Shown here piece by piece: positions 57,863 through 60,396 of a stretch of 64,000 bases of DNA; within the stretch, counting starts at the first letter, position 1, and the number at the start of each line of letters is the position of its first letter. The notes beneath the pieces are model-generated. The model searched no databases. It saw only the letters and a list, made by a program, of their open reading frames with translations, and was not told the DNA's origin. The DNA comes from Halorientalis salina (GTDB lineage: Archaea; Halobacteriota; Halobacteria; Halobacteriales; Haloarculaceae). The stretch lies in contig NZ_SOSC01000003.1 of assembly GCF_005049285.1 (NCBI RefSeq), forward strand, positions 248,001-312,000, in the 5' to 3' direction. The translations under genes were made by a program, and so were the position numbers.

Positions 57863-58225
57863 ATGACAAACTGGCGCGCCGTCGGTATCGGCTTCCTCGT
57901 CAGCATCGTCGCCGGCCTCTTCGCGTTCGCCCTTCCCGTGATCGGCCACATCGGTGCGGGACTGATCGGCGGCTTCGCCGCGGGCTACGTCGCCGGCGGC
58001 GGCATCGGGAGCGGCACCTGGCACGGACTGCTGGCGGGTGCTATCGGCGGCATCGTCCTCGCCGCCCTGTTCGGCCTCGGCGCGGGATTCGTCGGGAGCA
58101 TCGCCGCCGGCCCGGTCGGGGGCTTCCTCGGCGCGAGCGTGTTCGTCGTCGGTGCCGTCATCGCGCTCGTCCTGGCGATCGACAGCGCCATCGGCGGCGC
58201 GGTCGGCGGGTTGCTGGCCCGATGA
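57863..58225 (+). CDS. DUF5518-like glycine-rich membrane protein
   Basis: A 120-residue, very hydrophobic protein with three or four Gly/Ala-rich helices (residues about 7-30, 33-55, 60-85, 90-112). DUF5518 proteins are common in haloarchaea, with no known function; their Gly/Ala-rich helices suggest small oligomeric membrane proteins. ATG 57863 (MTNWRAVGIGFLVS) is preferred over an in-frame ATG eleven codons upstream. Confidence 0.78.
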   Translation: MTNWRAVGIGFLVSIVAGLFAFALPVIGHIGAGLIGGFAAGYVAGGGIGSGTWHGLLAGAIGGIVLAALFGLGAGFVGSIAAGPVGGFLGASVFVVGAVIALVLAIDSAIGGAVGGLLAR

Positions 58226-58316
58226 TTTTTCATAAATATCGACCAGTATTGTGTATTGTGTAACCTATATAGACCAGTCCACAACATTCATAACACATGC
58301 AGGGCAACAAGTGACC

Positions 58317-58490
58317 ATGAGCCAGGAAGCTCGATCGGTCGATGGACGGGTGAGGGAGCGCCGGGACATCGTCTCAGTAGTCGACGAAAGCGAGGCAGGT
58401 CGTGACTACGTCATCGCGGACATCAGCCGAGACGGCTCCTGGCTGTCGGTGGCAGAGCGGGAAACCGTCTCGTTGAACGCCCACCGCTAG
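58317..58490 (+). CDS. 57-residue acidic haloarchaeal protein
   Basis: A soluble 57-residue protein: MSQEARSVDGRVRERRDIVS, then VVDESEAGRDYVIADISRDG and SWLSVAERETVSLNAHR. A decayed copy of its last third lies upstream of hisE (59202-59354). A TATATAG box near 58265 suggests a 25-nt leader. Its stop overlaps the stop of a converging hisE fragment by 2 bp, exactly as the decayed copy overlaps hisE. Function unknown. Confidence 0.65.
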   Translation: MSQEARSVDGRVRERRDIVSVVDESEAGRDYVIADISRDGSWLSVAERETVSLNAHR

Positions 58491-58585
58491 AAGCGCCGCT
58501 CGCGCAGTTCTTCGAGATCTACGTCTTCCATCGACAGCACGACGAGCATGGATATCTCGTCGCGGTCGTCCGCAACGCCGTGGGC
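58487..58585 (-). pseudogene. Decayed fragment of hisE (C-terminal third)
   Basis: The minus strand reads AHGVADDRDEISMLVVLSME followed by DVDLEELRERRF and a stop. HisE at 59351 ends DDDRDEIAHEAADIVYHMLV, LLSMKDMDVEALRTELRDRR. The DDRDEI block and the MLV-LSM-D-D-E-LR pattern match, with a short internal deletion in the fragment. At DNA level GATATCTCGTCGCGGTCGTC-like and CATCGACAGCA(c/a)GACGAGCAT blocks agree almost completely. The rest of the gene has been replaced by other sequence. Confidence 0.7.
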
Positions 58586-58590
58586 ACTGA

Positions 58591-59175
58591 TTATTCAGTC
58601 CCGGTGTTCGCGGCGACGATGCCGCCGATAGCACCGAAGACGGCGGGGAAGACGACACCCGCCAGCAGAATCGCCGGCAGGAGTTCGGGTTCCCCGCTGA
58701 AGCTGGCACCGAACCCTTCCGTCGAGACGCGGAACAGCACCGCGCCGATGGCCGAGAGCACCAGATACGGCGGGACGACGAGCGCGCCGACGACCGCGCC
58801 GTTTGCCGTCTCGGAGACACCTTGCGACCGGCCGATAGCTAACCCGGAACCGACCAGTAGCGCCACCGGGACGAGGTACAGAAGCGGCGAGAACCCGTCA
58901 CCGCCGATGTACGATACCGTACTCGACCCACCGAATCCGAGAAAATCGCCCGAAACGACGATTTCGACGAAGTGGCTGTTGAAAAACACCCATCCGGCGA
59001 AGTCGATGACGCTACCAGCGTCACCGGTATTGTTGGATATCTCGCCCAGTCTGGAGTCCTCGAGACGCACGAGGACGACGAGGGCCGTGAGTACGTAGCC
59101 GGCTATCCACGCGGCAGCGCCGGCGATGGCACCCTCTACGAGCGGAAGGTCGTCGGAGTCGATTGTCGGGGACAC
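58591..59175 (-). CDS. Uncharacterised membrane protein, four or five helices
   Basis: The 194-residue protein has hydrophobic segments at about residues 14-36, 90-110, 118-140 and 168-188, plus an extracytoplasmic stretch (about 42-85) rich in Gly, Ser and Asp. GTG 59175 is the start. A TTTTTTATAACG box lies 20-30 bp before it on the minus strand, which predicts a leaderless transcript. The gene sits between the two halves of an apparent duplication and may have arrived with it. Function unknown. Confidence 0.65.
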   Translation of the reverse strand: MSPTIDSDDLPLVEGAIAGAAAWIAGYVLTALVVLVRLEDSRLGEISNNTGDAGSVIDFAGWVFFNSHFVEIVVSGDFLGFGGSSTVSYIGGDGFSPLLYLVPVALLVGSGLAIGRSQGVSETANGAVVGALVVPPYLVLSAIGAVLFRVSTEGFGASFSGEPELLPAILLAGVVFPAVFGAIGGIVAANTGTE

Positions 59176-59194
59176 GGCCAGAGGAACAGCTTCC

Positions 59195-59206
59195 GTTATA
59201 AAAAAC
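59195..59206. promoter_or_regulatory. TATA-rich box shared by diverging transcripts
   Basis: GTTATAAAAAAC reads as a TATA box in both directions. On the minus strand it lies about 26 bp before the GTG at 59175. On the plus strand it precedes the remnant of the small gene by the same distance, perhaps the relic of its former promoter. Confidence 0.5.
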
Positions 59207-59354
59207 GTTCGGTCGATGGGTCGATACCGACGACACAGGACGGCGGCTCGACGTACACCCGGTAGGCGACGTCTGGCTGTCGATCGTCGAGTCGGAGGCG
59301 GGCGCGTTGAACGCCCCCGAGCGAACCGACGAGTGCAAAAACAGCAGCAGTTAG
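59202..59354 (+). pseudogene. Decayed copy of the 57-residue gene, start lost
   Basis: This plus-strand frame has no start codon. It reads VDTDDTGRRLDVHPVGDVWL followed by SIVESEAGALNAPE. The intact gene at 58317 reads VDESEAGRDYVIADISRDGS and WLSVAERETVSLNA at the same positions. The stop (TAG 59352-59354) overlaps the hisE stop, as in the intact pair. The lack of a start and a two-residue gap suggest it is no longer expressed as a protein. Confidence 0.6.
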
Positions 59355-59650
59355 CGGCGGTCGCGCAGTTCCGTGCGGAGGGCTTCGACGTCCATGTCCT
59401 TCATCGACAGCAAGACGAGCATGTGGTAGACGATGTCGGCGGCCTCGTGGGCGATCTCGTCGCGGTCGTCGTCCTTGGCAGCGAGCAGGAGTTCGGTCGA
59501 CTCCTCGCCGAGTTTCTCCAGCACCGCGTTCTCGCCTTTCTCGTGGGTGAACAGCGAAGCAGTGTAGGAATCCTCGGGCAGGTTCTCCTTGCGGTCCTCG
59601 ATGACGGCGAACAGGTCGTCGAGGACGGCGTCGGTGTCGTCCATGTCCAT
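59351..59650 (-). CDS. hisE: Phosphoribosyl-ATP diphosphatase
   Basis: A 99-residue all-alpha NTP-pyrophosphohydrolase of the MazG/HisE fold. ENAVLEKLGEESTELLLAAK carries the EExxE metal-binding motif and DDDRDEIAHEAADIVYHMLV the downstream metal-binding ExxD part. It cleaves PR-ATP to PR-AMP in histidine biosynthesis. It is separate from hisI here. No other his gene is in the window. The stop overlaps the stop of the decayed gene on the other strand. Confidence 0.92.
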   Translation of the reverse strand: MDMDDTDAVLDDLFAVIEDRKENLPEDSYTASLFTHEKGENAVLEKLGEESTELLLAAKDDDRDEIAHEAADIVYHMLVLLSMKDMDVEALRTELRDRR

Positions 59651-59741: not shown

Positions 59742-59895
59742 GGGACCGGAGGTCCCTCTTGCAGCCGGACGTAGTCCGGCGACGAAGCCGAGCGCGGTTC
59801 ACGCGCCCGGAGGGCGCGCCTTTTTTGGTCCAGATTTTTTACCGGGGTTTGAGGGTCGCGGTGCGACCCGAGGACCTCGGTAAAAAAGGTGGTTA
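59742..59895 (-). terminator. Stop-linked T-tract and four-hairpin array after the DUF151 gene
   Basis: Reading leftwards from the DUF151 stop: TAACCACCTTTTTTACCG, whose outer arm pairs with CGGTAAAAAA (59835-59844 with 59878-59887) around a perfect GGGTCGC/GCGACCC hairpin (59853-59869). Then come GCGCCC/GGGCGC (59803-59817, next to a T6 run at 59821), CCGGAC/GTCCGG (59765-59779) and GGGACC/GGTCCC (59742-59756). The layout mirrors that after the aconitase at 33809. The gap 59651-59741 to the hisE start holds nothing else I can name. Confidence 0.6.
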
Positions 59896-60339
59896 GACCT
59901 CCATCACTTCGCGGATGTCCTCGAGATCGTCGAACTCGTCGGGATCGCGCCGGCCGTCCTCGAAGACGTGGTCGGCGACTTCGATGGGGGCGTTGGTCCG
60001 GGCCGCAAGCGCCAGCGAGTCGCTGGGGCGGGCGTCGACGACGACGCCGTCCCGGGGCGTCGCGAGGTGGACGTCCGCGAGGTAGGTGCCGTCCTCGATA
60101 TCGCGGACGACGACGCGCTCGACGCGGCCGCCGAGTTCCTCGACGATGTCCAGCGTGAGGTCGTGGGTCAGCGGGCGGCCGATGTCCTCGGCGTCCAGCC
60201 CGCGGGCGATGCTGGCGGCCTCGTCGAAGCCGATGAAGATGGGGAGGAAGTCGGGTTCGTCGTCGGGTGCCAGCAGCACGACCGGGACGGGGCCGGTCGG
60301 CGTGCTCGCGACTCGGACCCCCTCGATTGCGGCGTCCAT
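59893..60339 (-). CDS. DUF151 / bifunctional nuclease-family protein
   Basis: A 148-residue BFN-type protein: VRVASTPTGPVPVVLLAPDD, then FLPIFIGFDEAASIARGLDAE, LTHDLTLDIVEELGGRVERV and ADVHLATPRDGVVVDARPSDSLALAARTNAPIEV. Plant homologues have nuclease activity; the prokaryotic role is unsettled. The in-frame ATG at 60339 (MDAAIEGVRV) is the conserved start. The stop codon begins the T-tract and hairpin array. It lies just downstream of pdxT on the same strand (57 bp). Confidence 0.88.
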   Translation of the reverse strand: MDAAIEGVRVASTPTGPVPVVLLAPDDEPDFLPIFIGFDEAASIARGLDAEDIGRPLTHDLTLDIVEELGGRVERVVVRDIEDGTYLADVHLATPRDGVVVDARPSDSLALAARTNAPIEVADHVFEDGRRDPDEFDDLEDIREVMEV

Positions 60340-60396
60340 ACGGGTCCCAGGTGACGCGCCGGGAAAAAGGCACACCTCCGGGCCGCCAGCCCCGTG

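Follow-up and report, generated by a model that had tools for sequence, protein, structure and literature searches.

The locus lies within a window of 64,000 nucleotides from the haloarchaeon Halorientalis salina and comprises, in order, a GTPase gene (minus strand), a DUF5518 gene (plus), a DUF7556 gene (plus), a fragment of hisE termed hisE' (minus), a membrane-protein gene termed MEM (minus), a DUF7556 remnant (plus) and hisE (minus), with two more minus-strand genes upstream of hisE. Genes around the locus are provisionally labelled pdxT, 'bfn' and NOG1. The DUF5518 membrane protein (57863-58225, plus strand; PF17647, 53.9 bits) is encoded by the native convergent neighbour of hisE, also found in the congeners G001, G002 and G006, and is followed by an AT-rich leader (58226-58316, plus strand; 37% GC) which probably contains the DUF7556 promoter and in which a search for a notable fold found none. 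The intact DUF7556 gene, which belongs to an accessory subfamily, occupies 58317-58490 on the plus strand and has 57 codons. It is met tail to tail by hisE' (58487-58590, minus strand), a 33-codon fragment of the hisE 3' end with no start codon and with two in-frame internal gaps. MEM (58591-59175, minus strand; 194 codons) separates this pair from a second one, made up of a DUF7556 pseudogene (59206-59354, plus strand), which has lost its start, carries a deletion of about 40 nt with a frameshift and ends at a displaced stop, and the intact hisE (59351-59650, minus strand), the only copy in the genome and presumably encoding the phosphoribosyl-ATP diphosphatase of histidine biosynthesis. DUF7556 and MEM are the only credible genes in 58226-59350. 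Judged from sequence, hisE, the extra DUF7556 gene and MEM are most likely working at present and both fragments inert; hisE and the DUF7556 gene far from it would each be expressed and functional.

A preliminary description of the locus had recognised two convergent pairs of the same genes, the left with an intact 57-residue gene and a hisE cut down to 33 codons, the right with an intact hisE and a small gene lacking its start, and the family assignments bear this out. The left DUF7556 protein matches PF24433 over positions 1-56 of 56 (57.8 bits, cut-off 27), and the right hisE product matches both PF01503 (PRA-PH; 74.1 bits, cut-off 21.3) and TIGR03188 (95.1 bits, cut-off 42.7), being the sole PRA-PH match of the genome. 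The left hisE' has no full PRA-PH domain, start codon or Pfam match; it reads SAHGVADDRDEISMLVVLSMEDVDLEELRERRF* on the minus strand, is homologous to the C-terminus of hisE, and its two in-frame gaps measure about 27 and 12 nt. The right-hand DUF7556 frame facing hisE, VDTDDTGRRLDVHPVGDVWLSIVESEAGALNAPER, likewise has no Pfam match and no intact start. It ranked third, with 15.0 bits, when a home-made DUF7556 profile was run against all hisE loci, and on these sequence comparisons it is classed as a homologous pseudogene. Its upstream end matches, at 13 of 14 positions, the stretch of the left gene that codes for RSVDG (58332-58345 with 59206-59219), and 13 was reached in none of 300 random stretches, so the remnant formerly extended almost to the start of the gene.

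The left and right halves share five matching segments of 14-53 nt, all in the same order. Downstream of the 13/14 match just described, 58430-58482 pairs with 59264-59316 (38/53), 58492-58550 with 59353-59371 (17/19) and 59375-59423 (39/49), and 58554-58570 with 59454-59470 (17/17), which makes the copies 72-100% identical by segment, with gaps. The joint local alignment of the halves reaches a score of 127.5, whereas the null (about 2,900 random window stretches) averages 46 and peaks at 89; the duplication itself is real. Although the genome is a draft (3.66 Mb in 23 contigs), it is highly improbable that a misjoined assembly or spurious similarity accounts for the pattern, given a joint alignment far above the null, an order of flanking genes that is the same in congeners, and the fact that collapsed or duplicated reads cannot yield diverged copies.

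The preliminary description explained the two halves by an ancestral linkage, in which a full DUF7556-hisE pair was duplicated and then decayed in a complementary fashion. Homologous halves with one intact gene each fit that proposal, as do the presence of both genes in the same orientation in each half, a DUF7556 remnant that was formerly near full length, and stop codons overlapping by 2 nt in both pairs. However, the likeness of the overlaps does not reflect simple descent, since they were reached by different routes: on the left, hisE' overruns the usual end of hisE by one codon (F), whereas the right-hand DUF7556 frame continues about nine codons beyond the usual end of its family and stops at a TAG supplied by the 3' end of hisE itself, and the spacing of the DUF7556/hisE junction differs by 27 nt between the halves. 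The truncations likewise give no support to the part of the proposal that calls for two full modules. Both abut MEM: some 30 nt separate the DUF7556 remnant from the start of MEM, and on the other side the homology of hisE' extends to no more than about 10 nt from the stop codon of that gene, which leaves hardly any room for lost DNA there. No trace of the N-terminal half of a second hisE is left beside MEM, nor would there be space for one.

Comparison with other haloarchaea does not reveal the ancestral pair. The survey took in 131 further hisE loci, all distinct and haloarchaeal; downstream sequence ran to 1.4 kb or more in 127 of them and to 5 kb or more in 71, and DUF7556 adjoins hisE in none. 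The only other match to the DUF7556 profile above 12 bits in hisE loci (L284) lies about 6 kb from hisE. Across 57 genomes of the family, DUF7556 and hisE matches are never nearer than about 5 kb to one another among the matches listed, and in the 21 genomes with close relatives of the DUF7556 gene of the window, hisE is located elsewhere. No single convergent DUF7556-hisE pair was found in any outgroup of the survey; in congeners, hisE either abuts DUF5518 or has a PAS-kinase-like gene after it. DUF5518 and hisE end about 12, 3 and 2 bp from each other in G001, G002 and G006, against 1125 bp in the window, and in three congeners a PAS/histidine-kinase-like gene of 471-475 codons replaces DUF5518 in the slot between hisE and the GTPase gene (L112, 1815-3236; L114, 1512-2939; L113, on the reverse strand). 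The slot of H. marina is occupied by a short insert, next to which lies a copy of the hisE tail. As far as the data reach, the DUF7556-hisE linkage is thus local to this lineage, and duplication of an ancestral full pair followed by complementary decay appears quite unlikely.

The gene between the two pairs had been described as unrelated to them, which holds, and it is also foreign. MEM belongs to no family in Pfam or NCBIfam. Its product shares 80, 75 and 73% identity with proteins from genus g57, which belongs to another family (f4), and 71% with one from G047 of its own family, whereas identity within its own genus does not exceed 48%. A maximum-likelihood tree joins MEM and those four proteins in a clade with support of 100/100, far from the congeners. 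By identity pattern and tree, MEM is therefore classed as a xenologue that was acquired horizontally. Its GC3 (0.77) is close to that of DUF7556 (0.76), and native neighbours have about 0.90-0.92. The nearest relatives of the DUF7556 gene of the window are about 45% identical and come from outside the genus, mostly from another family and from genus g14; a further DUF7556 gene of the same genome lies on contig C18, so the copy in the window is an extra one. A search of the literature on DUF7556 found none. Several sources for the segment were considered and rejected. Joint import of MEM and DUF7556 from the MEM donor does not fit relatives of MEM that have neither DUF7556 nor hisE beside them, a plasmid source does not fit a MEM that is unmatched in the plasmid collection, and a phage source does not fit a segment with no DNA match in the phage collection.

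This foreign composition of MEM and DUF7556 is also what would be expected of the main rival explanation, a xenologous recombination at the 3' end of hisE. An incoming haloarchaeal hisE tail with DUF7556, and perhaps MEM, would have made one half native and the other foreign, and the copies would never have been duplicated in this genome. Strongly diverged copies (the 38/53 and 39/49 segments) fit such an origin. Changes between hisE' and hisE fall at codon positions 1, 2 and 3 in numbers of 4, 0 and 5, and this avoidance of second positions, which also fits, is a weak hint that hisE' may have diverged as a functional gene elsewhere. Among 143 hisE sequences, the best DNA match of hisE' is by a narrow margin the hisE of its own genome (score 89.5), followed closely by the hisE of a genus-g14 genome (L199; 86). 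The two DUF7556 copies are each other's closest relatives at the protein level (first of 86, with a lead of one point), but at the DNA level their mutual closeness ranks only seventh of 86 and copies from other genera are as close, which leaves room for two separate origins. However, no candidate donor with DUF7556 adjoining hisE was found, the closest MEM relatives offer no such arrangement either, and the top match of hisE' is still the native hisE. Import by recombination is accordingly rated as possible but somewhat unlikely.

The reading preferred here, to which a probability of about 0.55 is given, is that a foreign-type island of 1.1 kb was inserted in this lineage, together with a duplication of the hisE tail only, and that decay followed. 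The slot is empty in congeners, the ancestry of MEM is foreign, the repeats are collinear and both truncations abut MEM. The island would have entered the intergenic slot that separates hisE from the convergent DUF5518 gene, bringing an accessory DUF7556 gene and MEM. In the course of this, a partial direct repeat would have arisen that took in DUF7556 and, of hisE, the 3' portion alone (some 130 nt of the original), such that MEM with its promoter ended up between the repeat copies. In the copy on the hisE side, DUF7556 would have lost its start to the junction with MEM and then decayed, and the far copy would have kept an intact DUF7556 gene beside no more than the tail of hisE. The order of these events is inferred, and insertion and duplication may have taken one step or two. 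The survival of one whole gene on each side would thus be due to the positions at which the repeat ends, rather than to complementary decay of two full modules. A full second hisE need not be assumed, since hisE' ends so near the MEM stop. The rearrangement is best read as local and recent, not as the trace of an ancient gene partnership, and the case illustrates that the look of ancient linkage with reciprocal loss can result from a single local insertion with a partial repeat.

The locus resembles known cases in haloarchaea where single lineages gained genes in a conserved intergenic slot: content that varies and is foreign in base composition lies between conserved flanks, here hisE with its upstream genes and, across the slot, DUF5518 with the GTPase gene. 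It differs from them in the partial direct repeat, taken from the tail of the adjoining gene, that borders the insert. In this last respect it may resemble integrative elements that enter the 3' ends of genes, where the tail is copied at the far end of the insert and the target gene stays intact. Unlike those elements, the segment has no gene for an integrase or other recombinase (none was found in 58226-59350), its repeats are strongly diverged and the repeat includes DUF7556. Attachment at a tRNA gene was considered as well and rejected, there being no tRNA between 50 and 64 kb of the window.

Copies of the hisE tail alone are a commoner, recurrent event at hisE in other haloarchaea, so a lost full hisE need not be assumed on this ground either. 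At least nine other loci have tail-only copies of 22-53 nt a short way downstream of hisE (L227, L049, L223, L053, L054, L211, L189, L289 and L050, some of them from mutually close relatives); two of them, L211 of H. marina and L227 of H. regularis, are from Halorientalis, and the best score in upstream controls was 38. In most of these loci the copied stretch, about 48 nt with the stop codon, recurs 94-116 bp downstream. At L189 (about 1749-1900, downstream of hisE), there are at least three tandem repeats of a 52-bp unit in which the final 22 nt of the gene are included. Counting against the preferred explanation, the tail copy in the window is longer than those of the other species and has no adjoining palindrome, and it may have a different cause; a mechanism shared by the window copy and the others is a guess.

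Each Halorientalis genome has 9-30 exact copies of the palindrome in question, CCACGTTTTT-N20-50-AAAAAGGTGG, and reversed controls have none. In eight of nine tandem palindrome pairs that were analysed, the end of a long ORF falls within the repeat unit, which for most of these eight takes in the last 48-90 nt of the gene, the nine having been chosen for being pairs and so giving no measure of frequency. In a separate set, the sequence preceding the palindrome reappears within 8 nt after it in 7 of 18 cases, against 1-2 of 85 mismatched pairs; this set is small and consists partly of hisE loci already known. At L320-L325, L327 and L328, and at hisE in L227, L049, L223, L053, L054, L211 and L050, the 3' tails of genes are found as direct repeats beside the palindrome. 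The tails measure about 33-90 nt with the stop codon, and in some cases they form tandem arrays whose period is 128-188 bp. The locus resembles these tail and hairpin duplications in having the hisE tail, stop included, repeated just downstream, but its copy is longer, lacks the palindromic element and encloses a membrane-protein gene; a motif scan found no CCACGTTTTT...AAAAAGGTGG element between 58590 and 59350.

A wider process in Halobacteria might be proposed, in which the last 20-90 nt of a gene including the stop would be copied downstream, usually with the palindrome. Such a process is at present speculative and rather unlikely, and the same may be said of the idea that the tail copy in the window is one of its outcomes. 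It is apparently undescribed, in that a search of the literature on related duplications or haloarchaeal intergenic palindromes found no description. If true, gene 3' ends would be recurrent seeds for tandem duplication and for the capture of foreign genes, and confirmation across genomes would point to a mechanism that reshapes gene ends and opens intergenic slots to foreign genes. Gene-tail duplication beside the palindrome is perhaps a lead of more interest than the locus itself. In the window, a copy or relative of the palindrome lies at 59822-59892, just after the ORF upstream of hisE, and a complete copy lies near 33.9 kb (33867, minus strand). A tail copy of that upstream ORF (59893-60375) was considered and rejected, its alignment score of 15 being under the null mean of about 20. 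Two further palindrome copies (L309 and L314, around 1501) have a sequence like the 3' end of a tRNA repeated on both sides.
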